Part shown: positions 6,996 to 63,226 of the stretch, one piece after another
Layout of the letters: the number at the start of each line of letters is the position of its first letter
Numbering within the stretch: position 1 is the stretch's first letter
Assembly (NCBI GenBank): GCA_013215685.1
Contig: JABSQU010000002.1
Location: 1-64,000 of the forward strand
Source: Mycoplasmatales bacterium
GTDB lineage: Bacteria > Bacillota_I > Bacilli_A > Mycoplasmatales > Metamycoplasmataceae
DNA: 64,000 bases
Reading direction: 5' to 3'
The notes under the pieces: model-generated
The model's input: only the letters and a program-made list of their open reading frames with translations
Database searches by the model: none
What the model was told of the DNA's origin: nothing
Position numbers and translations under genes: made by a program

Positions 6996-8423
6996 CTAAT
7001 ATGCTCTCGCAAAAACAACAAGTCTATTAGTTTCTTTTCCTGTTATGATACATTTTCTCATATTTTTTTTGTCTCTATCAAAGGGAATAACTCTTGCTGT
7101 TGCCCCTGTTTCTTTTTGAATTTTTTCTTCGTCTTTTGAATTTCCCGCAAAAGGAACTACAACAAATTTCTTATTAGAAATTTCCTTTTTTAATTCATCA
7201 TAAGTATTTTTATAAACAACATTTTTTTCTAATCTCATTAATGCATTTTTGTATAAGTCATTTTGAATTAATTTAAGAAGTGATTCAGCTTTTTTCTTCA
7301 CATCAACCAATTTAACTTGATATTTTTCAAGTGTATCTCTTCTAACCAAAGTAACAAAATCATTTTTTAAGTCTCTAGGACCCACTTCAATTCTTAATGG
7401 CGTTCCTTCTATTTCGGATTTTCCTGCTTTAAAGCCTGGATTTTTATCACTAGAGTCTAGTCTTACTCTAAATTTCTTAGAAAGTTCTTTGCAAAGCTTT
7501 TTAGAAATTGCTTTAACATTTTCGTTTTTGCTTGCAAAAAGTTCTAAAATATCAATTTGATAATGGGCTATTTTAGGAGGAATAATAACTCCTCTATTAT
7601 CAGAATGAGACATTATAAGAGCACCGATAAGTCTTGTCGAGATTCCTCAAGAAGACTGATACGCATATTCACTTTCATTATTAACATTTGTAAATTTAAT
7701 ATTGAAAGCTCTTGAAAAATTTTGTCCAAAATAATGGGACGTTCCAGATTGAAGCGCCTTTCCATCTTTCATCATCGCTTCAATTGTATATGTTGAAACA
7801 GCTCCTGAAAATTTTTCTCTTGGTGTTTTTTTACCAGATATGACAGGAATTGCCAGGAAATCTTTAAGAAACTTTATGTAAATTTTAAGAATTTTCCGCG
7901 TCATTCTTCTAGCATCAATTGCAGTCGAATGAACAGTATGTCCTTCTTGTCACAAAAATTCTCTATTTCTTAAAAATGGGTTTGTTGTTTTTTCTCACCT
8001 AAGGACATTTGCTCATTGATAATATTTAATTGGGAGATCTTTGTATGATCTTACTTCATTGGAAAACAAATTTCCAAATAGCACTTCTGATGTGGGCCTA
8101 ATCACAAAAGGGTCTTCTAATTCCTTTGAACCTACCTTTGTAACAGTAGCCAGTTCTGGGGCAAATCCCTCAACATGCTCCTTTTCCTTTTCGATGTAGG
8201 AAAACGGAATTAACAAAGGTAAATAAACATTTTCGATATTATTTCTGGAAAATATTTTATTTATTTCGTTTTGAATATTTTTTCATATTCCAAACGAAAT
8301 CGGCTTATAAATCATTGATCCTTTTGATGGTCCATATGATATTAAATTGCCTTGTTTAACAATGTCTTGATATCATTTTGCAAAATCTTCTTCTTGTGGG
8401 GTAATTTTATCTAATATTTTCAT
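6996..8423 (-). CDS. proS: prolyl-tRNA synthetase (archaeal/eukaryotic-type)
   Basis: A 475-residue class II aminoacyl-tRNA synthetase. VIRPTSEVLFG is motif 2-like for ProS, and [20 protein letters not shown] with EGHTVH are typical of the short archaeal/eukaryotic-type ProS used by mycoplasmas, which lacks the bacterial editing insertion. The C-terminal ~200 residues form the anticodon-binding domain plus the extra domain ending in FARAY. TATAAT at 8430-8435 is 6 bases before the ATG, predicting a leaderless message. Confidence 0.95.
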
Positions 8424-8479
8424 ATTGTAATTATACAAAAAACATAAAAAAACATAATCATTTATTACATATTTAACTT

Positions 8480-10033
8480 TTATATTTTGTAATAAAATTG
8501 CATGCCTATGTTTTTTGCTGTTTTTTTGTCTATCATTTCAGGTGGATTTTCATAAATAACTTTTATTTTTTCGGATTGGGCAACTTTTTTAATTGTCAAT
8601 AAAGTAATGTATAAGTTTGAATCCGAAAGACCTTCCTCTCCTCATATAATTCCATCAACAAGAATGAACTGAGGATTTGTTTGTTTAATCAAAATTCCAA
8701 CCATTTCTGTAAATTTGGTTATTCTTATTGCAAAAACAAATTCTTCTTTTTGCAATTTTTTTATCGTTTCCATCAAGGTGTTGTAACGTAGTTGAGAATT
8801 TAAATTAACTACATAAATTGCTTTTTTGTATTGCATTCTACTCTGGTTTTTTATTAATCAATGAGAATTTACATCAATAAGAACTGGTGTATCAATTTTT
8901 TTATTAATTCCAATAATTTTTGCCTGTGCATCCATTAATTCGATTTTATTATTACCATTAGATAAGACTTTTTTTAAGATATTGTTGTTTAAGTCCGATA
9001 CTCCTGGATGTGCATATCTTATTATTTCTCTATTATTACTTTTTCTTCTAACTGGTTTGTATGTTGTTGATATTCTCCCGGTTCTTGTTGCAAATCTGAA
9101 AATCCTAACAGCTTTAGAATATTTTTTATATTCTTCTGCATTGTATTCTTCAGTCTGATTAGAAATGAATTCCTTGTTTAAATCAATTGAAAGTATTATA
9201 AAAAAGTCAAGAGCTCTTATTGCTTGATTCAAACTTTTGTGAGTGTAAATTTCCTGTAAAGTAATGTATCCTGAACCATTGAAAAACATATTATAACCAA
9301 CGCTTTTTCCTCTTTTTCTTATTTTGGAAATAAATGACAAAATTTGTCTATTAACGTTTTTCATAGATGGTCCATGAAGAACAATTATAAGAACATCATT
9401 ATTTTTAAAATATGTTAAATCTTTATTTATTGTTAATTTTAATAGTTTTATGAATTTATTAGTAGAGTCATTGATTTTTTGGTTAATATTAAAAGCAATA
9501 AAACCTTTAAATTTAGAATTTATATTAATGATATGTTCTCTATCTACATAATTTACCTTAATTTCTTTTCCTGATTTTTTATTTACTTTTTTTCTTCATG
9601 AAAGAATCATTAAATAGTCAGCACTATTGTCACTTTTATAAAAAGTGATTTCAATAAAATAAAGATTCTTTTTTGAAACTTGATTAAGTTTGCCTTCGAA
9701 ATTCAAAGAATACTGGTCCACTCCACTGGTTATTTTCACCATTGCTTCTCTGAATTTTCTCTTTATAGATTGACTATTGTCAAATTGATTTAAAAGATTT
9801 TTTAGCGGAATAGCGTCTTTTTTTCCAATTCCCTTAAAAATGCTTTTTTGCTTTTTTGTGGATTTGAATTGTCTGATTTTTTTTGAATATAAATCCAAAT
9901 TAAAAATATGAACACCTTTATGATGGTGTTTGTTTCTTTCGTTGTAAAAATATAAATATAAAAGATATAAACTAAAGCTTAATATCGTTAAAATTGGTAA
10001 TAGTGTTGCAAATAATATTTCAACAGCGCTCAT
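8480..10033 (-). CDS. membrane-anchored protein resembling a degenerate GGDEF-EAL protein
   Basis: A 517-residue protein conserved among mycoplasmas (I believe of the MHO_4530 family). One N-terminal membrane helix (about residues 5-28) is followed by a basic linker. Residues about 220-285 look like the end of a GGDEF fold (VGYNMFF...YTHKSLNQAIRALDFFI). Residues about 310-517 follow the order of EAL-domain strands: TYKPVRR for the QPI strand, PVLIDVNSHWL for the NLS strand, FAIRITKFTEM where DDFGTGY would be, FILVDGII for the KID strand and KVIYENPP for the AEGVE strand. The catalytic EAL and DDFG residues are not kept, so an enzyme is unlikely and a ligand-binding or scaffold role more probable. 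The start abuts the helicase stop (TAAATG). Confidence 0.6.
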
Positions 10034-12145
10034 TTAACCAATCCTTTCCAATGACTTATGATTTTTCATTAAAGTCTTGTTTCCGTGAGGTGATTTGAAT
10101 GCAATTTCAATAATGTCGTTTTGAACATTGACAACTACTCCTCTACCAAATTTTACATGAGCAACCTCGTCACCTTCTAAAAAAGTTCTGTTTTTTATAT
10201 AGTTTTCTTCGGTTTTATTTGGTGCTATAAATTCATTTGTAAATGACCTAACATCAATTCCCATCTCTGTAATGAATCTAGATGGTTTTCTTTGAAATCT
10301 ATGGTCAATTGAAAAACCTCTTGCATCTGTAATAAATAGTTTATCCATCGCTCTTGTAATAGCAACATAGGCAAGTCTTCTTTCTTCTTCTAATGCTGCT
10401 TTACCACCTTCATCTAGTGCTCTTTTAGATGGGAAAATCCCTTCGGAGAATCCAATTATAAAAACATTTCTATATTCCAATCCTTTAGCTGAGTGAGCAG
10501 TCATTAAAGAAACATAATCAGACCCGAAAGAATGATCAGACTTCTCTGTATATAATGATATTTCTTCAAGATAATCATGAAGCCCTTTATTTGGATTTTG
10601 TTTTTCTCAATCTTTAATTGACTTAATTAGTTCCTTTATATTGTCAATTCTCCCAGCATCATTAACAGAATCTCACACACTGTAGTAGTTTACTTCAATA
10701 AGAAATTTTGATAAAACAAGTGAAATTGAATTTGTTTTTGTTGCTCTTCTGTATTTATTTATTAAATTCATAAATTTTACAAGTTCATTTTTAACAGATT
10801 CTGAAAGAGGAATTTTATCAAAGTGTTTCATGATTGCATCATAAATTGATAATCTAAAGTTTGAGGAAAAATTAACAAGTTTCTCTAAAGCGACTTTACC
10901 TATTTTTCTAGAAGGAATATTAATCATTCTCCTCATGGCAATTTCATCTCCGTTTGCAATTATTTTTAGAAACGAAATAGAATCCTTAACTTCTTGTCTT
11001 TGGAAAAATTTGACACCTCCGAAAACAACATAATTTATACCAGCATTAATTAAAGCTTTTTCAATTGGGGCAGATAGGTAATTAGCCCTATAAAGTATTG
11101 CAATATTTTTTAATTGCATTCTTTCTTTTCTCAGTAAATTAATTTTTTGTATTACCCATCTTGCTTCGGCGTCTTCAGAAAAAGCATGATGGAATTCAAT
11201 AATGTCACCCTCTCCCTTTGAAGAAATAAGTTTTTTGTCGATTCTGTGCTTGTTATTTACAATAAGTTTGTTTGCACCATCTAAAATAGTTTTTGTTGAT
11301 CTATAATTTTCCTCAAGTTTTATTATTTTAGAATTTTTGAAATACTTTTGAAAATTATTTATTAAATTAACATCTGCTTGTCTTCAAGTATAAATTGTTT
11401 GATCAGGGTCACCAACAATTGTTATATTATTGTGTTGTGATAGCATTTTTATAATTTCGTATTGAATTCACGAAGTATCTTGAAATTCGTCAACCAAAAC
11501 ATAATCAAATTTGTCTGATCATTTTTTTGCAATTTTAGGATTTTCTTTAAATATCTTGTGCACAAGAATAAGTAAGTCATCAAAATCTACTGATTTGATT
11601 TTTCGAATTTGATCAGAATAGTCTTTATAAATGTTAGCTATTATTTTGTCATTATCTTTTTTAGCATCTTCAGCCATTGTTTCCGGAGAAATTCCCAAAA
11701 TTTTGTTTTTTGAAATATAAGAAATAACAGAGTTATAGCTATGAGTTTTTGGTGATAAACCATATTTTTTATATAAAGGAGATAAAATTAATTTTTGATC
11801 AATGTTATCAAGTATATTAAAGTTTTTTGGATATCCAAGAGCAGATATCTCTTGTCGCAAAATTCTAGCTCCTAGAGAATGATATGTAGAAATTGTGATA
11901 GGTTCTGCCTTTTCTTCTATCATTCCCTCTAATCTTTCTTTCATTTCTGTTGCTGCTTTATTTGTAAAAGTTACCGCAAGAATTCTCCTCTGATTTATTT
12001 TTTTCTCGTTAATTAAATAAGAAATTTTGTGAGTTATTGTTTTTGTTTTTCCAGAACCCGCTCCCGCTATTATCGCAAGAGGTCCAGTTGTTATTAAAAC
12101 AGCTTTAGTTTGATTTTTATTTAAATTTTCTAAGTAATCTTTCAT
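10034..12145 (-). CDS. pcrA: ATP-dependent DNA helicase, PcrA/UvrD family
   Basis: A 703-residue superfamily 1 helicase. Motif I is AIIAGAGSGKTKT near the N-terminus; ILAVTFTNKAATEMKER is motif Ia; DEFQDTS motif II is read between the visible fragments; later TAHSAKGLEY and RRLAYVAITRA are motifs V and VI. The short C-terminal tail is PcrA-like. It unwinds DNA 3' to 5' in repair and plasmid/rolling-circle contexts. The ATG at 12145 has a GGGGG-rich Shine-Dalgarno sequence; a GTG at 12151 overlaps it and is less likely. It lies third in a four-gene operon with RDD and glycosyltransferase genes upstream. Confidence 0.93.
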
Positions 12146-12155
12146 TGACACCCCC

Positions 12156-12809
12156 TTAATCTACTCAAATAACATCGATGTTATTTACTGGTTTTGGTTT
12201 AATTTTTATTTTTTCTTCATTGTCTTTTTTATAAATTTTATTTATGTATCTATTGATCCAAACGGTTTCAGTTTTAGATTGGGCATCATGTAGCCCGTTT
12301 TTTTCTCCTCTAATAATTATGGAGATTATAAATATGAATTGAATTATAGATAAAATTGATCCAATAGATGTGATGATTGTTATTCTAAATTTTTCTCAAT
12401 TAGTAAATTTTATTGCGCTCTTGTCTGTCAGAGAAAATTTAATTATTAGCGTGTGATTTATTATTAAGCAAACAAGTATTGTTAAAGAAATTCAACTAAT
12501 AGAAAAAAATAATTCTCTGATGATAATTGATTTCATTTTATTATTATCTTTAAATTTAATTTTGGTCCTTGTGATAAACATTCCTATCGTTTTTCCATCT
12601 CAAAAAAATGGAATAACCAAAAAAACGGCAGCTAAAAGTAAAATAATTTCAACTATTCATATATAGAACATTCAGTTTTCTTTAAAGTGCCATCCATCAC
12701 TTCTTTCTAACATCCCAAATGCTGAAGCAACAATTATGGCTGATATAAGAATTAAGTCAATCAGTCTTCCTAACAACCTTATTCAAAATCCTGCTTTTCT
12801 GTTTATCAT
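12156..12809 (-). CDS. RDD family membrane protein
   Basis: A 217-residue polytopic protein. The first helix holds RLLGRLIDLIL, matching the Arg-Asp pair that names the RDD family. GKTIGMFITRTKI and, near the end, GLHDAQSKTETV match the family's conserved turns. About four to five transmembrane segments are visible. The family's function is largely unknown; some members have been linked to ion exchange. The ATG at 12809 directly follows the stop of the glycosyltransferase gene (TAAATG), so the two are translationally coupled. Confidence 0.85.
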
Positions 12810-13772
12810 TTATTTCTCAAGCTCCTTGTATGCTTTATACATTGAACCTGGAGAAATATGGGATAATAAAACGCTTTTTTCCTTAGGCATTAAAATGGCA
12901 TATTGATTAACATCTAAAATATTTATAAATTTCGTTTCTTGGCGTTTTTGAATTTTATCTTTAAATTTTTTAAGAGATGCTTTATTTTTTGAAGATTTCA
13001 CAAATGGAGCCGCAAAAACAACTTCAGTAAAATATTGAGCATAAAGATATCGATCAATTGATTCAAATTTAGGAGATTTAGATATTAAGTCTACAACAGC
13101 ATCAAAGTGTCTTACGAAATGAATGTAATTAAATTGTGATGAATTATTAACTCTAGATTTAACCAATGTTTTTAATGAAGTTGAATATGTTTTTGCAACA
13201 GAAAGAGAAAAGTATGTTATGCCAATTGAATATCGAGAATTGAAATTAACAGGCATTTTTACTCTGCCCACTTCTGATAGAACACTGGTTTTATATATTT
13301 TATTAAAATCAAATGGATATGTTCAAGCAATTATTTCTGGATTATCTTCAATTTTGCTGCTTGTTTTAAATTGTTTTCTTATTTTTCCTTTTAATTTTAT
13401 TGGTGAGTTAAATGCTGCAGAAAATTCTATAATATCCGTACCTTTTTCTTCAGCTAGTGCAATAACATTTTTTACCAACGAAGATGAAAATTCATTTCTG
13501 ATTGATAAAACAATTGAATATTTTCCTTTTGCAATTTTTGCTCCCTGGCCAATGCTTTTAAATCTTGAGTTTCTCTTTGAATTAAAAATTATTCTCAAAT
13601 CGCCATTTATTTTTTCTCTGTATTTCTCTACTACTTCTAAAGTTTTTTCTCCATTTGTATCAATTATTAATATTAATTCATAATTATTAGAATTTTGTGT
13701 GCTAATTTTAGATAAAAATCTATCTAATCTTTTTGCCTCTTTATAAATTGGTGTTATTATTGATAATTTCAT
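12810..13772 (-). CDS. family 2-like glycosyltransferase, probably DXD-deficient
   Basis: A 320-residue protein with a GT-A N-terminus (MKLSIITPIYKEAKRLDRFL) typical of family 2 glycosyltransferases. The strand that normally ends in the metal-binding DXD (GxYIxFLDADD) reads GKYSIVLSIRNEF, so the canonical acidic triad is replaced by Arg-Asn-Glu. Either it uses another metal site or it is a non-catalytic paralogue. There are no transmembrane segments. It heads the RDD-helicase operon. Shine-Dalgarno GGAGAGAG precedes the ATG. Confidence 0.72.
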
Positions 13773-47814: not shown

Positions 47815-49275
47815 ATGAAACAAAAATGATTTATAAAAGACATTTGATTTATACCCAAAAAAGTCAAGAAAAAGCGAAAAGGAGTAACGTTGCTTGAATT
47901 GTTCTTTGATTTAGTTTTTGTTGCATTTTTAGGTGGTATCGTTCACAGAATGGTCCACATGTTGGAAAATAATTTACATCATTTTGACAGCTTTGAATTT
48001 GCTTTTGTGTCTTTTTCACTATTTACAATGGTAATTTTTTGAGAAAATATGAATATTTATAATTCTCGATTCGAAGAGGGTGAGAATTATAGACATAGAT
48101 TCTTCATTTTTTTAATAATGTTTGGATTCATTCTTATAACTGCGTCACTATATATTGATTTTGGACTTGAAAAGAATCAATTTGCAAACTTTGAAAGCAT
48201 ATTAACAATTAATATAATTGGATATTCAATATCTTTTTCATCTTTGTTTTATTTATACTTTTCTGCTTGATTAGCTCAAAGCGATAAATATGAAAGAGAA
48301 TTCTTATCAAGAAACTTTGTGGGAATATTTTTTGCTATTCTTTTTTGAGCCTTACCAATGGGCATTAGTTATTCATTAATTGATAAATCAAATACAATTC
48401 AATTATTGATAACAACACCCTTGTGAATCACAGGATTAATTTTATGAATGATATTTGAATGGAAATCTAGATCAACAAGAATATCAGCAAATACTGTTGA
48501 TGCATCGCTTAGTCACATCCAAGAAAGAGTTAGTATTATTTTCATAGTTTTTATAGGTGAATCAATTGTGCAAATTGTTGTTAGCTCTCCTGACATTTTG
48601 AAAGACAATATACCGATTGCAATTTTTAACATTCTTGCAGCATTTTTAATATTATTTGGCTGATGATGAATTTTTAATGACATGGTTAATTTGCCAGACA
48701 TTAAAAATCACCCCAGAACCATAAATCTATATAACTTTTCAATGGGAATTATGCTTTTTTCATTTGCTATAGAAGCGGTTGGACTTTCTTTAATAATAAA
48801 AGACGACCCATTTATGCATGGTAAATATATGCTTTTATCTGGAAATATAATTTGGTCAATTGCCAATGCAGGAGCCAACTATTCTCTTAAAAGTTATAAA
48901 ATAAAAGAAGGAATATTCTTTCCCAAAAAAGCAAAATATATTAGTTATATATCACCAATTTTTAATATGATTTTTATGTGAATTGGACTCGCTTCTTTCA
49001 TTACACCACATTTATTTATGTATATATTATTAATTTTGACATCTTTATTTGTCTTGCTCCCAATATCAATAAGAATTTCACAGAAAAGGAGTCTTTCTGA
49101 AGAAATTATAGCTAAAACAATAATTGAATATTATGAAAAAGAAGATGAATGAATTAAAAAGAATGTTGTAAAATTTCTTGATCATGATCACCATGCAAAA
49201 TATGGATACAAACTTAATCATTATTCAAAATATATAAAAATAGAGGAAAAGGAACCTTCTAAAGATCAACCATAA
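47815..49275 (+). CDS. LtrA-like (low temperature requirement A) membrane protein
   Basis: A 486-residue protein with about twelve membrane helices. The opening KKRKGVTLLELFFDLVFVAFL matches the LtrA family signature (xxLELFFDLVFV). IGESIVQIVV is a second family motif. The function is unknown beyond cold-growth phenotypes in Listeria. The last ~60 residues are a charged, His-rich cytoplasmic tail (LDHDHHAKYGYKLNHY). TATAAT at 47803-47808, 6 bases before ATG. Confidence 0.85.
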
Positions 49276-50474: not shown

Positions 50475-51557
50475 ATGGATGACAAAAAGAAAAGAGCCCA
50501 TAAACAGGCAAAAAACGCTAAAAGATTATTAAAATCTGAGAAAAAAGATTTTAATTCCTCAAATCATAATAAGACAAAAGAACAAAAATCTATTAAAAAT
50601 GATTTTAAGCATTTTGAAAAAGAAGAAAAAAATAATAAGAAAAAAATGCTACTCGATAAAAAACGAGAAAAAAGAATTAGTCAAAAACGAGAAAAAATTT
50701 TATCTACAAAAAACTCAAAAATACTAAACAAATTTGAAAATAGACAAGAAAAAAGAAAATTAAAAAGAGAAATAAAAGAAATTGATAAATTAAATGTGGA
50801 ACCAAAGGGACAAAAATTTATTCCTAATTCTTCAAAAGATATAATTATAGAGGTTAAAAATGTTGTAAAAGCATACACAACAAAAACTCTTATTTTTAAA
50901 GCCTTAAACAATATTTCCCTTGAAATTAAAAGAGGAGAATTTGTAGCAATATTGGGTCCATCTGGATCTGGAAAATCTACACTTTTAAATATAATATCTG
51001 GTCTTGATAGACCTACATATGGTGAAATAATTATTGATGGCAACAACGTCGCTGCATTAAGCGATAAAGAAATGACTTCTTTAAGACGAGATAAAATAGG
51101 TTTCGTTTTCCAATCTTATAATTTGCTTCCAACCTTAAATGTTTCTGATAATGTTGAAATTGGAAGATCGCTTCAAATGAATAAAGAAAAAAGATTAGGG
51201 ATAAATGATGTTTTAAATAATATGAATATGTCTGATCAAATCAAAAAAAGAACATATGAATTATCTGGTGGACAACAACAAAGAGTTTCAATAGCCAGAG
51301 CAATAGCAAAATCACCAGACATTTTAATTGGAGATGAACCAACAGGTGCTCTAGATACAAAATCAAGAATACAAGTTTTTAAAATTTTTCAGGACTTAAA
51401 TAAGAAAAAGAAAACCACTGTAATAATTGTTACTCATAATCATGAAATAGCGAAATTAGCCAATAAGATCGTAAATGTGGAAGATGGCAAGATAGTTAGC
51501 ATAAAAATTAATAAGAAAGTTTTAAAAGCGGAAGATCTAGGTAAATCATATGAATAG
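50475..51557 (+). CDS. ABC transporter ATP-binding protein (MacB/LolD type)
   Basis: A 360-residue protein. The C-terminal ~230 residues form the ATPase: LGPSGSGKSTLLNIISGLD (Walker A), FVFQSYNLLP (Q loop), ELSGGQQQRVSIARAI (signature), LIGDEPTGALD (Walker B) and VTHNHE (switch His). These are features of the MacB/LolD/FtsE exporters. The N-terminal ~125 residues are an extra Lys/Glu-rich region, probably coiled coil, absent from usual members. Shine-Dalgarno AGGAGGG before ATG 50475. It overlaps the permease gene by 8 bases, forming an efflux system. Confidence 0.92.
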   Translation: MDDKKKRAHKQAKNAKRLLKSEKKDFNSSNHNKTKEQKSIKNDFKHFEKEEKNNKKKMLLDKKREKRISQKREKILSTKNSKILNKFENRQEKRKLKREIKEIDKLNVEPKGQKFIPNSSKDIIIEVKNVVKAYTTKTLIFKALNNISLEIKRGEFVAILGPSGSGKSTLLNIISGLDRPTYGEIIIDGNNVAALSDKEMTSLRRDKIGFVFQSYNLLPTLNVSDNVEIGRSLQMNKEKRLGINDVLNNMNMSDQIKKRTYELSGGQQQRVSIARAIAKSPDILIGDEPTGALDTKSRIQVFKIFQDLNKKKKTTVIIVTHNHEIAKLANKIVNVEDGKIVSIKINKKVLKAEDLGKSYE

Positions 51558-54500
51558 ACACCTTTGAAAATCAACATTTAAATCTTTTTTCAAAAATAAA
51601 GTAGGGATAATTTTATTAACCCTAATTATTTTCCTGACAGCAACAGTCTTTACATTGTTGCAATCAACATCAAATTCCTTTAGTTCTTCATATAGCAATG
51701 TTGTTAAAAAGGGAAACTTACATGATTTTACTGTCAAAGAAAAATATTCAAATTCTGGAGACCTTATTGCTGACATAACGACGTCTCAAAAGAGGCAAGA
51801 AGAAATTTTTAATAATCAAAATGCTTCAGAAATTTATGGTGAAAACACCAAAACTAAAGAAAAATATATTTATTTGTTTGGGAAAAATTCTCCATTAGAT
51901 TTAGTTTATACAGAATCAAATCATCCAGAGAAAAATAAAACTATCAATAACTTACCAGTAAGAATTAAGTTAAATGATATATTAGATAATGGAATTGATA
52001 CTAACGGTGATGGTAAAAAAGATTCTTTAAAAGCGAATTTTGACTTAAACTTTGAAGTCGCAGGAGGAAATAAGAATGTAAATGATTATTATAAATGAGG
52101 AATTCTTAATCACCCTGGATCAGATGAAAATTATATGTGCTTTTTTTATAATACAGATCAAGCATATTTTGACACAATCAATAAGAATTTAGTAAATTCA
52201 CAGGATGATGTTAATTATTTCATTTCCAGTCAAAATTGAACTAATTATTCTCATACCTATAATGCAAATCACTCTTTTAATATTTATGAAAAAAAGGCAA
52301 GTTTTTTTGATTCAAATCACATTAAAGGGAATATTGTCTACAAAGAAAGTTTATCTGATTTAAGTAAAAGAGTTTTTACTGAAATATATCAAAATATGTT
52401 TGAGAAAAAAGACGTTGTAGATTTAAATATTAAATTTAATGAAAATAAATCTACTGCAGATATTAAAAATTATTTAAGACTTTATCCACAAGCTGATATT
52501 GAAATTAAAAGCCAGCCATATCATCCAGACGTAAATGGTAAGGCTTATGACTATTCTAATGATCCAAATGTTTTTGAAGTTTTAAAGAAAAATAGAAATG
52601 ATATTCTTAATAAAATACAAGATGAACATTCTAAATTGTACAAAGAAGAATTAAGCAATGCTGTTTATGGAAAAAATTCAAAGGGAGAATTAGTTTTTGA
52701 TGTTCCATCTGCAACAAATCCAATTTCACAAATGTATCCAGATGGAATATTTGTAAAAAGTAGATACTACGATGAAAATGACAATCAAATGGTAGAAATT
52801 GAAAAAAGTACAAAATCCATATCAATTGAAGATTTTGGAAATGCATATAAAGTCGTCGATACAATAAATAATTACCAAGATATTAATTCGTTAGTTTTAT
52901 ACAAAGGAAGTTCCATTGATAATTCTATTTCCAATAAAGCTCTTGAAGAGGAAATAAAAACTAAACAAGATGCAGTTTCTGGCAATCCCAAGTGAACTCC
53001 TGTGGACAAAACTAAAAAATGGAAATATTCATCACAAGGAACTATTTCTGATATTTTCTCAACTAAAACAATTCCTTCTGTCTTAGCTGTTGACCCATCA
53101 TCTTTTGAAATAATAGTTTCTCCTTCATTTGCATCAGAATATAAACTTAAGCCAGTCTCTAATAGAAATTCTTGATACACAACTATTGATGGAAAGAAAG
53201 AATTTGACAAGAATTCAGATTTTTACAAAATGGCTAGTGAAGTCAAACCCGGATTAGCTACCCAGAATTTTATTAATAAAAATAAAAATTCTTATGTCAA
53301 AATAGGCAGCATGGTTTTTGCTGTTGTTGGAATAGGAACTTCTCCGGATTTTGCTTATCCTATTGTTGATGAAAAAAATCCAGTTCCAAATTCTAAGAAT
53401 CAAGCCATTTTCTTCACAAATAGAAATGGATTTTCAAGAGTTTTTGATTCATTTAGAACAAATCCAAGAGAAGATTATTTATCTTTTAAATTCAGAAATG
53501 ATTTTAAAGGAGACAAAGAAGTTGTGATGAAGGGAATTGAAAATATTTCAAGAAAAAATATGAGCTGACCACCAAGCATCAAAATTGTTTCTGGGTATAA
53601 TGACACTAATGAGAAAATTCTTTTAGTTCCTCAAAGAATTGCCTTTCTTGAAAAATTAAATACAACAATAAAAGCTATAACCTGACTTGTTGTTTCATCA
53701 TTAATGATATTGACTACTCTAATAATTGTTTTGATATTAAAAAGAAATATTGCTTCTCAAAAAAGAAATTTAGGTATTCTCCATGCTAATGGATTTACGA
53801 AAAAACAGATTGCTTCATCATTTATTCTTGTTGGTCTTATTGTAACAGGATTGGCCACTATAATTGGTCACATACTAGGGTACTCGCTCCAGTTTGCTTT
53901 CATTTATATGTTTAAAAACTACTGGACAATTCCAATATTTGAACATAGCTTTTCTTGGTTATCATTTATTTTTACAGTTGGAATACCAATAATTTTAATA
54001 ACAATTTTAATCTATTCAATTGCCATCTACGAAATGAGGGGCAATGTGTTACAAAATATGTTAGGAGATAAATCTTCCAAATTTGGTGATTATTTATCGG
54101 CAAAAGCAACACATAAATTAAAATGATTTGGGATTAAAAGTAAATTCGCTTCTTCATTAATATTCTCAAACTTAAGTAAGATGATGATGATATTTATTGC
54201 AACAACCGGAGCCGTCACGGCCTCTACAATAGCAATAACTACATTTGGTAAATTCGATAAGGCAATTTCATCAACAGCCGACTCTCACAATTATAATTTT
54301 GCTGTAGATTTAGTTTCACCAACTATTGAAGGAGGACAATATACACCGGTAATCCTTGAGAATAAAAATAAATATACTCAAAATAGTAATGACCCATATA
54401 GAATAAGGGCAGGATGAACTGGCCCTAATGGAGAAGAAAAAGGTCCTCAAAATTCTATAAAAACAGCCAAAGATTGAGGATCAATGATGCAATTTCCTTC

Positions 54501-56103
54501 AAGTGAAGATGCTGTTGCCAAAAAAACAACAGGATCCCAATTTACAACAGAAGGATGATCTAAAAATAATTATAAATTAGTACCTGAAGCTGCAAAATAT
54601 TTAGATAAAAGAGTTCAAACTCAACTTCCATTTAGAGTAATAATGGGAGGATCTTCGGTTCCCTGAGAAGTCGCTGAATCATTAATGCCATCTAATCAAA
54701 TTTCTAAATCAAATCAAGATTTACTTGATTACATTCCAAAGTTAGTTGCATTCGGAAGCAATAACACTAAATACAATAATCTAGAATGGTATAAAGATTT
54801 AATTCTTATCAATGAAGATATCAATAACGATAGACCAATAAATGCGAATCTTCAAAAATTTGGTAATGATGTTGGTTCAGGAATATTAGGATTAAATTCT
54901 GAACTGAAAAAAGATTTTCAGGAATTTATTAAAGAATCTTGAGATGCAGGAATATATCCTTATTTAATTACATACAATCAAGTTACCACTAACTTAGATG
55001 ATGAGCTATATACCTCGATAAGAGGAGAAACTATTTTAAAAGATAAAAAAGGAAATGTCGAAAATATTCATTTATCTATTAAAGGAATTAAGGCAGACTC
55101 TAATTTCATAAAAGTAAACAACATCAATGATCTTACCAAATTTAACAAGCCTGGAATCATTCCAGTAATTATAAATAAATACACAAGTGAATTTTTTGAT
55201 TTATCGGTCGGGTCACAATTTAAAATGAAAGTTGAAAATACAACAGACAGATTTATCCGTAAAATAAAAAAAGAAGACTCAATGGAGAAACAATTTGAAG
55301 TAGTTGGATATATGAATTCATATTCGGGAATTGAAATGTATACATTAAGAACTACTGCAAATGAACTTTTAGGTCTTGATAAAACACAGGGCTTTAATGG
55401 ATTATTTTCTCATGAAGATAAACCAAGAGTTTTAGATAATATTAATCTTTATTCACCGTCTGGTTTTTACCCTGGTTTTGATACTGTTATTAGTGGTGGT
55501 GAATCAGAAGAATTACTTACACAAACAATTAAACAAAAAGTTCTATTTCAAAATGTTCCAAATCAAGATGATAAACAACTATTAGAAAATCTAGATGTCG
55601 AACAATTTGTAAATACCTATAGTAAATCAATATATGAGGCTGCAATATCATATGTTGATTGAGCAAAAATGTCTCAATTTACATTTAAATCTGTCAATGA
55701 ACTGTCATCAAATCTGATATGACTTTCTGAAGGACTTGCTTTAGTTATCGCCGCAATATTCATTGTCATTATCGGATCAATGATGGTTGAATCCAATAAG
55801 AGAAATATCGCTACATTAAAAGTTCTTGGATATAGAAATAAGGAAATTAGAAATGCATTTATAAAATCATTTATTCCATCTCTTTTAATCGGAACAATCA
55901 TAGCTATTCCAATTATATTTGCAATCCTTCTTGCAATAAAAGTTTCCATAATGAGTTTTGGAGCGGTTCTTATACCGTTAAATATGCTAGGATGAGAACT
56001 TATATCATCCGCGGCTATTGTTGTAGGAATTTTTGTATCTATATTCATATATTCAATTAGATCTCTTAATAGTCATTCTGCCTTAGAAGCATTTAAACAA
56101 TAA
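51550..56103 (+). CDS. giant FtsX/MacB-type ABC permease
   Basis: A 1,517-residue protein. One N-terminal helix (about residues 14-40) precedes a long extracellular domain (to about residue 690), then a FtsX-like helix set with KRNLGILHANGFTKKQIASSF; next is a second helix and a second extracellular domain (about 890-1370), then a final helix set with KRNIATLKVLGYRNKEIRNAF. The two Arg/Lys-Asn-hxx-LxxxGYxxxEI motifs are the cytoplasmic coupling turns of this family, so it is a fused double permease. The large outer domains are rich in Asn and Lys with no enzyme motif. It probably exports lipid, peptide or lipoprotein. Confidence 0.9.
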
Positions 56104-56999: not shown

Positions 57000-58639
57000 T
57001 GAAAACTATAATTATCGGGGGAGTAGCGGTTGGAGCAACCGCAGCAATGAAACTCAGAAGAAACAGTCCAGAAAATCAAGTAATTCTTTATGAAAAAGGA
57101 TCTGTTGTTTCTTTTTCAAATTGTGGACTACCGTATGGAATTTTTAATGATGAAATTTCCTCAAAATTGGCCCCAAAAGATACAAGCAAATTAACAAAAG
57201 CAGGTATTGAGGCTTTTGTAAATCATGAAGTTATAGAAATTAATGAAAAAGAAAAAAAAGTTGTTGTTCGAAATTTAATAAATGGAGAAATTTTTGAAGA
57301 TAATTATGACAAATTAATTTTAGCAATGGGAGCAAAATCTCTAAATCTTCCAATAGAAGGTTTAAAAAATGAAGAAAATGTGTATTCTTTAAGAACATAT
57401 GATGATCTAAAATTAATTAATAAAAAAATTAATAATAGAATGAGAAATGCCCTTATTATTGGAGCGGGTTTTATAGGAGTAGAAGTTGCAGAAACACTTG
57501 TTAAAAATGGCTTAAATGTCACAATAGTTGAAATGAGTAATAATACAACTGGTTTTGATATTGATTTTTCTTCATTAGTTGATGATACTTTAAGAAATAA
57601 CGGTATTGACTTAATAAAGGGTGATTCATTAAGTAATGTTGATTCAAAAAGAAAAATAGCAACAACAAATAGTGGTATTGAAATTAAGTATGATTTTATA
57701 ATAACGTCTGGAATTAAGCCGAATATTGATATTTTATATGGCACAAGTTTAGAATTAGAACACAACAGATTTATAAAAACTAATAAATACATGCAAACAT
57801 CAAATAATGATATATATGCAGGAGGAGATCTTACTTTGACGCCGCACTTAATTACTGGAGAAAAGTCATATCAGCCATATGCTCTTAATGCAAAAAATAA
57901 TGGTAGATTGATTGCTGATCATATTTCAGGTCTTAAAACAAAAGGGCAATTTCGTTCTTCAGGAGCGTCAATTTATAAGGTTTTCGGAGTTCCATATGGC
58001 AAAGCAGGAATAACAGAAAATGAAGCTAAGAAATATAATATAAGTCATAGGATCATAATGCCTACTGTTAATTCATCTGCATCATATTTAAATGGAACAA
58101 AAAAATTAATCTTTAAACTTATTTTTGGTAGCGAAGATAAAAAACTTTTAGGAATACAAGCGCAAGGTGAGCATGCTGATAGATTAATCGATTCATTTGC
58201 TGTGGCAATATACTCAAACTTAAAGATTGAAGATTTAGAAGAAATGAACTTTTCATATCAACCACATTTTTCAACAACATTAAGCCCTCTAAATATAGCG
58301 GCTCAAATTGCTAAAAAAGAAGATGAAGAAGGATTCATTTCTGTTTGTCCTTTCAATATTCCTAAAGAAGAAGTGATTGTAATCGATGTAAGAAGTCCAG
58401 AACAACACGAAAAAGGAAATGTAAGAGGTTCAATAAATATACCCTTCAATGATTTTTCTGAAAAAACTTTGCCTCAAAATAAAAAAGCAAATATATATGT
58501 TCATTGTAATTCTGGATTTACTTCTACTCTTGCAGCTGCAAAACTAAAAAAAATGGGTTACAAAAATGTTTTCAATGTTTATGGGGGAAATAATTTGTAC
58601 CAATCCATGTACCGAAACTTAAAACCAAAAAAACGCTAA
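56999..58639 (+). CDS. CoA-disulfide reductase with rhodanese domain
   Basis: A 546-residue flavoprotein. KTIIIGGVAVGATAAMKLRR is the FAD-binding Rossmann motif; SFSNCGLPY carries Cys42, the single redox cysteine of CoA-disulfide reductase. A second Rossmann, ALIIGAGFIGVEVAETL, binds NAD(P)H. Residues about 450-546 are a rhodanese domain: VIDVRSPEQHEKG and VHCNSGFTST with active Cys503. It reduces CoA disulfides or persulfides and may handle sulfur stress. The start is ATG 56999 (TAATG overlap); a GTG at 56972 would lie inside the nuclease gene. Confidence 0.94.
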   Translation: MKTIIIGGVAVGATAAMKLRRNSPENQVILYEKGSVVSFSNCGLPYGIFNDEISSKLAPKDTSKLTKAGIEAFVNHEVIEINEKEKKVVVRNLINGEIFEDNYDKLILAMGAKSLNLPIEGLKNEENVYSLRTYDDLKLINKKINNRMRNALIIGAGFIGVEVAETLVKNGLNVTIVEMSNNTTGFDIDFSSLVDDTLRNNGIDLIKGDSLSNVDSKRKIATTNSGIEIKYDFIITSGIKPNIDILYGTSLELEHNRFIKTNKYMQTSNNDIYAGGDLTLTPHLITGEKSYQPYALNAKNNGRLIADHISGLKTKGQFRSSGASIYKVFGVPYGKAGITENEAKKYNISHRIIMPTVNSSASYLNGTKKLIFKLIFGSEDKKLLGIQAQGEHADRLIDSFAVAIYSNLKIEDLEEMNFSYQPHFSTTLSPLNIAAQIAKKEDEEGFISVCPFNIPKEEVIVIDVRSPEQHEKGNVRGSINIPFNDFSEKTLPQNKKANIYVHCNSGFTSTLAAAKLKKMGYKNVFNVYGGNNLYQSMYRNLKPKKR

Positions 58640-58648
58640 TGCGTTTTT
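58629..58648. terminator. bidirectional terminator
   Basis: AAAAACGC / GCGTTTTT stem with loop TAAT; like the serS palindrome, it contains the stop codons of both convergent genes. Confidence 0.85.
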
Positions 58649-60240
58649 ATTTTTATATTTTCGAGGATAATTTCTCAAATCAACAAATATATTGTAAGGG
58701 GTCAGACATATCCAAATAATTCTTGAAGATATAGTTTTGAATTTAACGCATCAATCTTGCTTCCTAATATCGATGTTCCCATAATTCCTAAAATTAAAAC
58801 AGTTCTTGTAACATTCACAAATAGAAATGCTATATTTGCTGCAGCTTCTTTTGAAATAGAAGGCAAAATATAATATCTTACTCTTCAGATGAAACTATAT
58901 CCTTGTTTCTCAAGTTGATTGATTTTTCTAATTTGAATATTATTTATTGATCTGACAAATTGTTGAGATAGAATTGTTATGCTATGTAAAGAAACTGCAA
59001 TAATCGATAAGCTTATTGGAGATATAAAGTAAGCATTTAAAATTCTAAATATTAAAAATATGGGAATGACTCTGATTATAGAAATTAAAAATTTCACAAG
59101 TAATGCTAAGTAACTATTAACAATTTTTTGACTTGAAAAAGCAGCTACAATTACAGAAAATATTGTAGTTATGAAAACAATTACGTAGCATTGCTTAAAG
59201 ATATCAAATAACATAAATCATGGATTTTCATTTGCACTAGATGAAGACCATGAAGAGATATTCGGATTAAATAATTGTTCTATATAATTATTAAATCCGG
59301 AAATTCTTGAAAAATTTCATTCAAGTTGTGATATTGAATAAATAGCAATTACAACAAAAAATATTGCTGTGATTATTTTTATCATTTTTCTATAATTAAA
59401 TAAATGATATTTTTTAGTAAAATTTGTTGTTTTATCAGACATTATATATTTATTAAACAATCATATTACCATTTCAAAAAATAAAACTACTATCAAGAGA
59501 ACCAACAATGGATATCCGATATTTTCATAATGTAATGGTATATTTGAATTTATGAATTCACCGATACCAATAATCCCAAGTGATCCAAGTAAAGTTGATC
59601 ATCTTAAATTGGATTCAAAACTATACAAAAAAAGTGAAAAAATTTTATCATTGCTTCTTCCAATTATTTCCTTATTAAAAGCAATTAATGGTACTTGACC
59701 TTTTTTAATTGACATTTTATAAGAAAATTTATTCGCAGTTTCAAACATATCTGTTAAATATTTACTACTTCACAATCATGTAAATCAAGACAATATTAGA
59801 GTGGCTGCTAATTCCTTTTCAAAGCCTTCTTGTGTTGCATATATAAAAATAATTACCGGGAAAGCTCTTAAAAAAATTATTATTGCTTTAATCAAATAAC
59901 TAATTTTTCTAAAAATTTCCTTTGTTGAAATCACAGATGTTAAAATTCCCAAAATAAAACCAATTAGTGTTCCTAACGAAACGATTCTAATAGTGACAAA
60001 CATATACTTTATTGAATTATTTAATATTGATGAGGAAGGATAATTTTTATCATAATTATTAAATGAAAATAATTTTGAAATATTTGAATTTATTTTTGAG
60101 CTTGCAAAAGAATTTGTATTTCAATTAAAAGAGGCCAGAAAATAAACAAAAATAAAAAAAGAAAATACAAAAAAAACAATTAACAATTTTGATTTAATTT
60201 TATAATTATTTATTTTCATGTCATGCATTTTTTTATTCAT
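58636..60240 (-). CDS. ABC importer permease (P69/PhnE type)
   Basis: A 534-residue protein with two fused permease units. The first starts near residue 80 (FVTIRIVSLGTLIGFILG) and contains LLGSLGIIGIGEFI; the second starts near residue 343 and contains TVLILGIMGTSILGS. The repeated Gly-rich turn is the EAA-like coupling region. It resembles P69, the permease of the M. hyorhinis P37-P29-P69 operon. It is the last gene of the operon. ATG 60240 follows GAGG by 6 bases. Confidence 0.85.
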
Positions 60241-61396
60241 CATTTACCTCAACAGGAAAATAGTTTTTATTTTTATCAAAAAAATCTTTTTCAACTTTTT
60301 TAATTATTTCTATCATGTGATTTAATTTTTCATCATTGATCGAGAAAATATAATTATTTTTTAAAATAGTTAATTGATTTTTCTCGAGATTGAATTTTCA
60401 AATCAAATGCGCTAAATCTCAATAATAAGAATGAATCATGCTTCATTCAAAATCTATTAAGTAAGCTCTGGAAGTTGAAAATATTACATTTTTTGAATTT
60501 AAGTCTCCATGAGACATGACTTTAATTTCATTATCAAAATAATTATCATATTCATATTCTTCTATTTCGTTTGACAAGTTGATTTTATGTATTTTATTGA
60601 TTTCTTTTATTAAATTTTTGAGATCATCATCAGTCAATTTTTCTTTTCTAGATCCAATATAGAACTTTTTTAAATATGCATTTTTATATTTTTTATAATA
60701 ATCTTTTTTATAATGTGTCTTACTTACAAAATTTAATTCTTTTTCGTTTGAAGAATTATTATTAAAATGAATTTTTAAATGAATATTATTATTTATGTAT
60801 GAAATGTTGGAACCATCATGAATATATTTTCCAAGTTTTGTGCAATTATTTTCTTCAAATATATTTAAAGCTACATAAGTTGATTTTAAAACATGATCAA
60901 AGAAAAGATTTCAAGATTGATTTACTTCGCTTTTATAATTAATTATATTTACTTTGCTCTTTTCAAGAATCTCTTGATATTTCTTTTTATTTAATTCTGA
61001 AATTTCTTTTTTATTTTTATAAAAAAGCGAAAGATTATTTGGAATTTTTTGTAATAAATTTATTTTTCAAGACAAACCAATGATTCATTTAAATTGAGTA
61101 GAATTTTTTACTATAAAATTCATTTGATTTGAAAATGCAAATACATAAATGGGCATTTTATAATTTTTTTTAATATATTCTAGCGAAAGTCTAACTGAGT
61201 CATTTGTCATTTCTCCTACAATAATAGAAGCAACAACAAAATTTTTAATTTGATTATTCTTTAGATGATCAAATATATTTATATCTTCGTTTGATTTTTT
61301 TTCTAAATTAAAAAATAAAAACAATGGAGAATTTTTCCCAATATCTCCTTCTTTTCACATATGTATATTTTTTTCTTTTAATTTTATTCTATTCAT
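60233..61396 (-). CDS. APH-fold small-molecule kinase with extra N-terminal domain
   Basis: A 387-residue protein. Near residue 292, MSHGDLNSKNVIF is the Brenner-type catalytic loop (HGDxxxxN) and YLIDFEWSMIHSYYWDLAH the DFE metal-binding site, as in choline, ethanolamine and thiamine (ThiK) kinases. The first ~120 residues are not part of that fold (FVVASIIVGEMTNDSVRLSL) and I do not recognise them. It overlaps both operon neighbours and is under the TPP riboswitch, so a thiamine kinase role is likely; choline kinase is the alternative. It is longer than typical ThiK (~270). Confidence 0.72.
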
Positions 61397-62096
61397 AAGC
61401 ACCTTTAATCTTATTTAAATTGCTATTATTGAATACTAAATCGAAAAAAATTCCTTTATTTTTTATTGCTAATACTCTATGCCCTTTTTTAATAATCTCT
61501 AAATCATGGGCTACAATAATTGCTGTGCTTTTACTTTTTAAAATAGCATTTATAACATCTTCTGAATTTTTTATATCTAAAGAAGAGGTTATTTCATCGG
61601 CTAAAATTATTTCCGAATTTTTTAAAAATGATAGTGCGATCTGAACTCTTTTTCTTTCTCCACCAGATAATTCTGACATCAAAGTTTGGGCTTTATTTTC
61701 AATTTTTAATTTAGCTAAAGATTTATATATTTTTTTTATATCATCATTTGTTGCTATGCCTAAAAATTTAAGAATTTTATTTTTGGGTTTCATGAGTCTA
61801 TATAAATTATTAAATACAGTTTTATCTTCTATAAAATCATCTATTTGACTTATTAACGATATTTTATTTGAAAGATTTCTTCTCTCCTTTTTGTTTAAAT
61901 TTCCAGTAATTTTATTATTGATTTTAACACTACCTTCTTGATAATTTTTAATTAAAAGACTATCTAAAATTGAAGATTTACCTGCTCCTGATTTTCCAAT
62001 CAAAAATATTTTTTCTCCCTTATCGATTTTTAGATTTATATTTTTAACAATTATTTCATTTTTATATTTTATTTCTAAATTATTTATTTCAATCAT
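61389..62096 (-). CDS. ABC importer ATP-binding protein (P29/PhnC type)
   Basis: A 235-residue ATPase. LIGKSGAGKSSILDSLL (Walker A), ISLISQIDDFI (Q loop), ELSGGERKRVQIALSF (signature), ILADEITSSLD (Walker B) and VAHD (switch His). It corresponds to P29 of the P37 operon and to PhnC. It drives uptake through the permease two genes downstream. Confidence 0.92.
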   Translation of the reverse strand: MIEINNLEIKYKNEIIVKNINLKIDKGEKIFLIGKSGAGKSSILDSLLIKNYQEGSVKINNKITGNLNKKERRNLSNKISLISQIDDFIEDKTVFNNLYRLMKPKNKILKFLGIATNDDIKKIYKSLAKLKIENKAQTLMSELSGGERKRVQIALSFLKNSEIILADEITSSLDIKNSEDVINAILKSKSTAIIVAHDLEIIKKGHRVLAIKNKGIFFDLVFNNSNLNKIKGAYE

Positions 62097-62098
62097 TT

Positions 62099-63226
62099 TT
62101 ACCTCATCACCTTTTCAAATTTTTTATATACTTCATTGTGCGAATCGGTGATTGATTCATAATTATAGTATCCAATTTTAGGTCCATAGGTGTCGTTATT
62201 ATTTTTTGCTAGATTTATGAAAGCTTCAGCAATTATTTTTCCTTCTTCATTATTAAAATTACTTCTAAAAAAACCAACGTCATATTTTATTGGTTCTGTT
62301 ACCATCAAAAGCTCGATTCTTTTATTTTGATCGGTAGTTTGGAATGGTTTATCAAATAATGCTTTATTGGTTCAAACAAATGATCCCTCATCATCAAAAG
62401 CTATTTTGTAATTTTCATCTTTTCCAATATCCTTTGCTTTTCCATTTTTATTTTTGCTAGGATTGTCTAAAAATTCTTGACTTAAAGTTTCAAAGGAATT
62501 TTTTCCAAAATGTTTTTTTAACAATTTTTCTTGTAGTATAAATTTCCCGCCACTTTTATTATTTCCATGAATTATCCCAAAACTTAAGAATTTTTCTCAA
62601 TTTTTATCATCTCAAGACTTTCTTATTTCCTTTAATTCATCATTATTTCCACAAATTAAAATCATCCCTCTATAAAAAGGAGTAAAGGAATTTTGGTAAT
62701 ATTTTTTATAAATTGATCCATCAAATTCAGAATTTGAAATATTTTGATAGTTTTTGAGAGATTCTGTTCCTAAAATAGCTTGTTGGTATAATGGGTCATT
62801 TTCTTTTCCATTTAAGTAATAATTTTCTCCCTTATCTCAAATAAATTTTTTTGTTTCCGTTTGCAAAAGAGGCAATAAATCTCCTTCTTTCGAGAAATTA
62901 TTTATAGAAGCTATAGATGATATTCCAAAGTCATATTTTCTATTTACTACATTATCAACAATTATATAGTCGTCTGATACATTGTTTTGGATATCGATTG
63001 ATACATGGGGTTTATCAATTTTCTTTTCATCAATTATTTTGTTAATTTCATTTTCTAATGCAATTTTAAATGCACCTTTATCAAAATTTAATTGTGTTGT
63101 TTTTAAATTTATTGAAACATTTTTATCTCAATTTGATGATTCTTGATTTGCTGAACACGAGACAATAAAAGCGAATGATGAAATCATTGGTATTGTTGTT
63201 CCAAATTTAAGAATTGTCCTTTTCAT
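62099..63226 (-). CDS. P37/Cypl-like substrate-binding lipoprotein
   Basis: A 375-residue lipoprotein. KRTILKFGTTIPMISS leads to the lipobox FIVSC with Cys24. The rest is a two-lobed binding protein of the phosphonate/P37 type. M. hyorhinis P37 (Cypl) is the closest model and binds thiamine pyrophosphate. Here the gene sits under a TPP riboswitch, which independently supports thiamine or TPP as ligand. Shine-Dalgarno GGAGG is 3 bases from the ATG. It is the first of four genes, each overlapping or touching the next. Confidence 0.85.

Follow-up and report, generated by a model that had tools for sequence, protein, structure and literature searches.

Apart from Acholeplasma laidlawii, no mollicute is known to use c-di-GMP (PMC11535214), and an open reading frame resembling a degenerate GGDEF-EAL gene in a member of the Mycoplasmatales raises the questions of whether the resemblance is real and what such a protein would do there. 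The open reading frame was found as an earlier note on this DNA had described it, at 8480-10033 on the minus strand of the window, the whole stretch of 64,000 nucleotides that was analysed. It encodes 517 amino acids, contains three TGA codons for tryptophan (code 4), and its product matches the record NF045955 (“MHO_4530 family protein”) over residues 8-515 with 130.3 bits against a curated cut-off of 125. This record carries neither a domain nor a function. In the only paper among those searched that names MHO_4530, the protein is called hypothetical and its expression was lowered in an infection array (PMC5533444).

Distant homology to EAL proteins

The 517-aa protein searched as a single sequence gave no Pfam match even at E ≤ 10, PF00563 and PF00990 included, and no match in the PDB; thus, the EAL guess could not be confirmed by a simple look-up. 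A family profile searched against PDB sequences returned only chance matches to a kinase. The relatives gathered from whole genomes were very divergent, with 17-30% identity to each other, and the Pfam EAL profile was matched by two of the 11 relatives searched singly (best E 0.001). A search with a narrower family alignment yielded four related loci. When a profile of 28 members was aligned with 21 canonical GGDEF-EAL proteins by hhalign, the match extended over 314 colinear columns with a probability of 96.3, a P value of 1.9e-9 and a score of 84.6, against a score of at most 20.1 and a probability of at most 0.3 for 80 column-shuffled profiles and the reversed controls taken together; the shuffled profiles by themselves reached at most 19.8. 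GDPD, another TIM barrel used as negative control, gave 0.1. The EAL part alone matched canonical EAL domains over 199 columns (probability 95.8, P 8.1e-9), whereas the GGDEF part alone reached a probability of only 12% and the PAS-like domain had no sequence-profile support. Thus, the EAL assignment comes from sequence and fold together, and the GGDEF and PAS assignments mainly from the fold. The protein is an EAL homologue that lies beyond Pfam detection.

Predicted fold and domain order

The AF2 model of the protein (mean pLDDT 79.4, pTM 0.59), for which five relatives were aligned, begins with a single membrane helix, continues with a PAS-like and a GGDEF-like domain and ends, beyond a linker helix, in an EAL-like barrel. 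The N-terminal transmembrane helix at residues 3-36 (9926-10027, minus strand), which had been anticipated from the sequence, is indicated by the AF2 helix and by the N-termini of the family. Because this single helix is followed by basic residues, the positive-inside rule places the PAS-GGDEF-EAL part probably in the cytoplasm. The predicted PAS-like domain spans residues 39-148 (9590-9919, minus strand) on the basis of AF2 topology and Foldseek, and the GGDEF-like domain spans residues 175-285 (9179-9511, minus strand) as judged from AF2, Foldseek and the colinear hhalign match. The earlier note had recognised the GGDEF likeness correctly but only as the end of such a domain; the model has a whole GGDEF-like fold, preceded by the PAS-like domain that had gone unmentioned. 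The linker helix at residues 299-318 (9080-9139, minus strand, from AF2) is the most conserved segment of the family by mean column score. It is followed by the EAL-like barrel at residues 319-517 (about 321-515 in the AF2 model; 8483-9079, minus strand), assigned from hhalign and Foldseek.

The best Foldseek match in the PDB was the PAS-GGDEF-EAL protein PA0861 (E 2.5e-14, probability 1.00, 563 columns), followed by GGDEF-EAL proteins, DosP, MorA and LapD; FimX was also matched. PAS-GGDEF-EAL proteins were the top targets, aligned over 563-568 columns, and all of the 50 best PDB matches were EAL proteins. The TM-scores to single solved EAL domains were 0.50-0.65, and those for the whole chain were low (~0.33-0.39), as would be expected if the angles between the domains differ. 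Furthermore, the separately modelled structure of a relative with 24% identity (pLDDT 68.8) reproduced both the order of elements and the best Foldseek matches, and it also matched the PAS domains of FixL and ARNT. The models show the domain order TM-PAS-GGDEF-EAL and support an EAL-type barrel fold for the protein. The strand order over the last ~200 residues, which had been read as that of an EAL barrel, was thus recovered in AF2, Foldseek and profile-profile alignment with shuffle controls. The outcome named beforehand as refuting this reading, a predicted structure lacking such a barrel, did not occur, and the best PDB matches of the predicted EAL topology are PAS-GGDEF-EAL, GGDEF-EAL and EAL proteins.

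PA0861 (RbdA; PDB 5xgb, 5xgd and 5xge) has its domain order and fold in common with the protein studied here, but its solved structures include GTP-bound and c-di-GMP-bound forms, whereas the present protein is devoid of both the GGDEF and the EAL motifs. GdpP has a similar N-terminal architecture (TM-PAS-degenerate GGDEF) and carries DHH/DHHA1 in place of EAL. Descent of the N-terminal half from a GdpP-like protein was considered and rejected, as the similarity covers only ~20 columns.

Active-site residues and possible ligands

The residues compared with canonical EAL domains were the glutamate of EAL, the asparagine of INxS, both aspartates of DDFGT, the lysine of KID and the glutamate of AEGVE. 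In place of EALIRWMHP the protein has EIIRYAHP at residues 336-343 (9005-9028, minus strand), where R339 aligns with the arginine of EALxR and the EAL glutamate is unaligned. This arginine occurs in one of the 28 members, the protein of the window itself. The INxS asparagine is replaced family-wide, mostly by aspartate, both DDFGT aspartates are lost across the family and the KID lysine is replaced by isoleucine or valine. In place of AEGVE stands YENPP at residues 494-498 (8540-8554, minus strand), the strand to which the earlier note had given the right position with a wrong spelling (KVIYENPP, not KIYENPP), and its E495 is the only active-site glutamate usually kept (22 of the 28 members). 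In addition, NNDVL (residues 211-215) replaces the GGDEF motif, and no GG[D/E]EF is present. As aligned, the catalytic residues compared are lost across the whole family, with the usual exception of E495. Together with the fold and the hhalign match, these losses bear out the description of the protein as a degenerate GGDEF-EAL. Because the active-site residues are lost, established EAL chemistry makes hydrolysis of c-di-GMP very unlikely and its binding doubtful. Some ligand binding may still be conceivable, as E495 and, in the protein of the window, R339 persist.

The search for c-di-GMP machinery was extended to the genomes of the order. PF00990 had four matches in 198 genomes, all of the GdpP type, which leaves GdpP as the only other GGDEF-type protein found in the order. 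No PF00990 match was obtained in the source genome, this being a profile search to which an unrecognised cyclase could conceivably be invisible, and no PilZ was found in the 56 genomes searched. A diadenylate cyclase domain is encoded in the source genome.

Whether the protein could be a genuine receptor of the LapD or FimX kind, supplied with c-di-GMP either from the surroundings or by a cyclase that has escaped recognition, was weighed against these results. The Foldseek matches to LapD and FimX favour it, and R339 corresponds to the pocket arginine R450 of LapD (PMC3032553). LapD is also alike in being membrane-anchored, with both domains degenerate and a GGDEF-EAL fold (6pwk, 3pjw). A further argument comes from another mollicute, Ca. 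Oceanoplasma callogorgiae, whose membrane protein U1 has an EAL match and is highly transcribed (PMC11535214); the likeness to U1 is one of description, and its authors propose degradation of c-di-GMP (PMC11535214), whereas the MHO_4530-type protein is read here as catalytically dead. However, a conserved c-di-GMP pocket of the LapD type was not found in the family, in which R339 is confined to one member of 28 and the DDFGT aspartates and the KID lysine are gone. LapD has a periplasmic output domain, a HAMP domain and a working c-di-GMP pocket (PMC3032553), none of which is seen in the present protein; in the AF2 model the single N-terminal helix runs directly into the PAS-like domain, with no periplasmic output domain or HAMP. 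As GGDEF proteins other than GdpP and PilZ proteins were not found in the genomes searched, a c-di-GMP receptor appears very unlikely, and the term receptor used in the earlier note, with most ligand-contacting EAL residues gone, fares poorly.

The diadenylate cyclase domain and the pocket-strand residue E495 in 22 of the 28 members would also suit a receptor in which the EAL pocket takes another nucleotide instead of c-di-GMP, c-di-AMP being the most plausible one. There is a precedent in GdpP, since mycoplasmas keep TM-PAS-degenerate GGDEF modules of this protein in c-di-AMP turnover (PMC5508000). Nevertheless, the metal ligands and most of the EAL positions that contact base or phosphate are unconserved, and the N-terminal half lacks a clear relationship to GdpP beyond 20 columns. 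No EAL domain is known to bind c-di-AMP. We therefore regard this account as rather improbable. Its historical version, in which a second-messenger receptor left over from the loss of c-di-GMP in Mollicutes has been rewired to sense c-di-AMP or another nucleotide and would be the last c-di-GMP-type module, is decidedly improbable.

Because no c-di-GMP-making enzyme was found in these mycoplasmas, the MHO_4530-type protein has probably acquired a different role in signalling. With the pocket dismantled as well, it is best read as a scaffold that acts through protein contacts and that the PAS-like domain gates. In other bacteria, degenerate GGDEF and EAL domains are known to act as receptors or as regulators by protein contact (LapD, PMC3032553; E. 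coli members, PMC5635695).

Genomic setting, retention and proposed role

The gene lies directly downstream of a UvrD/PcrA helicase gene (10034-12151, minus strand; NCBIfam match and conserved neighbour), whose TAA stop codon abuts the ATG of the MHO_4530 gene with no gap. This junction makes cotranscription and translational coupling with uvrD probable. On the other side lies proS, for prolyl-tRNA synthetase (6996-8438, minus strand; TIGR00408 and synteny). Upstream of uvrD are genes for an RDD-family membrane protein (12156-12809, minus strand; PF06271, 3.7e-10, and synteny) and a family 2 glycosyltransferase, GT2 (12810-13772, minus strand; PF00535, 5.8e-14). The block asnS - GT2 - RDD - uvrD - MHO_4530 - proS - trx recurs in the family to which the window belongs (f1), and the order of the RDD and GT2 genes (12156-13772 in the window) between asnS and uvrD is conserved across this family. 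The glycosyltransferase, which had been described as adjacent, is thus three genes upstream in a housekeeping block, the direct neighbours being uvrD/pcrA and proS, and the biofilm link drawn from it is therefore rejected. Elsewhere in the window, three open reading frames of 1517, 486 and 389 amino acids (51550-56103, plus strand; 47815-49275, plus strand; 60233-61402, minus strand) had no NCBIfam match at E 1e-15, and 58636-63226 on the minus strand is likely an ABC transporter operon with a PhnE-like permease and a p37/Cypl lipoprotein of the thiamine-pyrophosphate type.

The same slots were inspected in other mollicute families. In family f4 (L129), the position after asnS - RDD - uvrD is held by a protein of 540 aa that carries an EAL signal (Pfam E 1.2e-3; E 5.8e-5 in the genome search for EAL), and in family f5 (L137 and L138) the product of the gene directly before proS has 593-597 aa and likewise an EAL signal. 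They have a degenerate GGDEF-EAL and a uvrD- or proS-adjacent locus in common with the protein of the window. The f1 profile aligned with f4 at an hhalign probability of 89.8% and with f5 at only 9%. Because the f4 protein as sole query over 198 genomes found only itself, this bridge rests on the Pfam matches and synteny with partial profile-profile support. The presence of Pfam-detectable EAL proteins in the same genomic slots (after uvrD; before proS) of two other mollicute families agrees with the EAL identity as an independent line of evidence. In L129 (6569-8675), a short open reading frame after the EAL-like gene resembles, by eye, a response-regulator receiver domain, which is unusual for a mollicute. 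The Spiroplasma-like genomes of family f6 encode degenerate GGDEF-EAL proteins of ~650 aa that score above the Pfam EAL cut-off, but these have a multi-helix membrane domain (7TM-GGDEF-EAL) and a different neighbourhood. In L133, L134 and L139 their genes are followed directly by an MgtE-like gene and trmB (gene names by sequence inspection), and the active-site losses are similar. They perhaps represent a separate repurposing in a different family.

All 29 loci with sufficient sequence beyond uvrD had a member of the MHO_4530 family downstream of it (E ≤ 8e-8, as calculated for these few loci), in a sample made of the 30 best uvrD matches, in which the genera g6, g10 and g13 are absent; g13 gave weak matches to the family in the genome search. 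Three genomes of genus g2 (L121, L122 and L125) have two uvrD-like genes, of which only one was seen beside an MHO_4530-type gene. The dN/dS values in six close pairs of family members were 0.04-0.11. Low identity between members (17-30%) and the complete loss of the catalytic motifs could suggest a decaying relic without function. However, the dN/dS values, the presence of a member at this position in all 29 testable loci and the intact full-length open reading frames in reduced genomes all oppose decay, and a relic is extremely improbable. The gene is under strong purifying selection, and it is kept and functional; the claim that the lineage has kept it stands, and the suggestion of a relic does not.

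The neighbourhood of constitutive housekeeping genes (uvrD, proS, RDD and GT2) and the want of a conserved pocket would also fit a structural function in the membrane or envelope, with the GGDEF-EAL fold as a scaffold only and no signal sensed. We consider such a role unlikely, though deserving some weight, because the PAS-like sensor and the conserved linker helix between GGDEF and EAL are characteristic of signal transmission. The probable role, with some reservation, appears to be that of a signalling scaffold, a catalytically dead PAS-GGDEF-EAL protein that is tethered to the membrane and works by protein contacts without c-di-GMP turnover. In such a scaffold, the PAS-like domain would receive a cytoplasmic or membrane-proximal cue, which the GGDEF-like domain and the linker helix would relay to the EAL-like barrel. 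The barrel would then offer a docking surface by which a partner protein is gated, with c-di-GMP neither made, cut nor needed. The probably cotranscribed neighbours are candidate partners by position only. This mode would resemble that of E. coli CsrD and other degenerate EAL regulators. CsrD, likened here by description, is a membrane-bound degenerate GGDEF-EAL regulator with no c-di-GMP turnover (PMC3032553, PMC5635695), but it has HAMP in place of PAS, and Csr targets are not expected in a mycoplasma.

The family name and the degenerate GGDEF-EAL kind are already known, and what is new is the domain identity of MHO_4530; no paper identifying it as a degenerate GGDEF-EAL was found within the open-access literature searched. 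The NF045955 family is here assigned the order TM-PAS-GGDEF-EAL, so that a hypothetical protein present in many mycoplasma genera, including marine ones, now has a domain identity. The view that mollicutes apart from Acholeplasma possess nothing of the c-di-GMP system is qualified as well. Work on degenerate GGDEF-EAL proteins is usually done in c-di-GMP-rich cells, in which a receptor role is hard to tell from a scaffold role. Because this gene is kept under strong selection and no diguanylate cyclase was found, the reduced-genome lineage offers a clean case for the role of a dead GGDEF-EAL protein.
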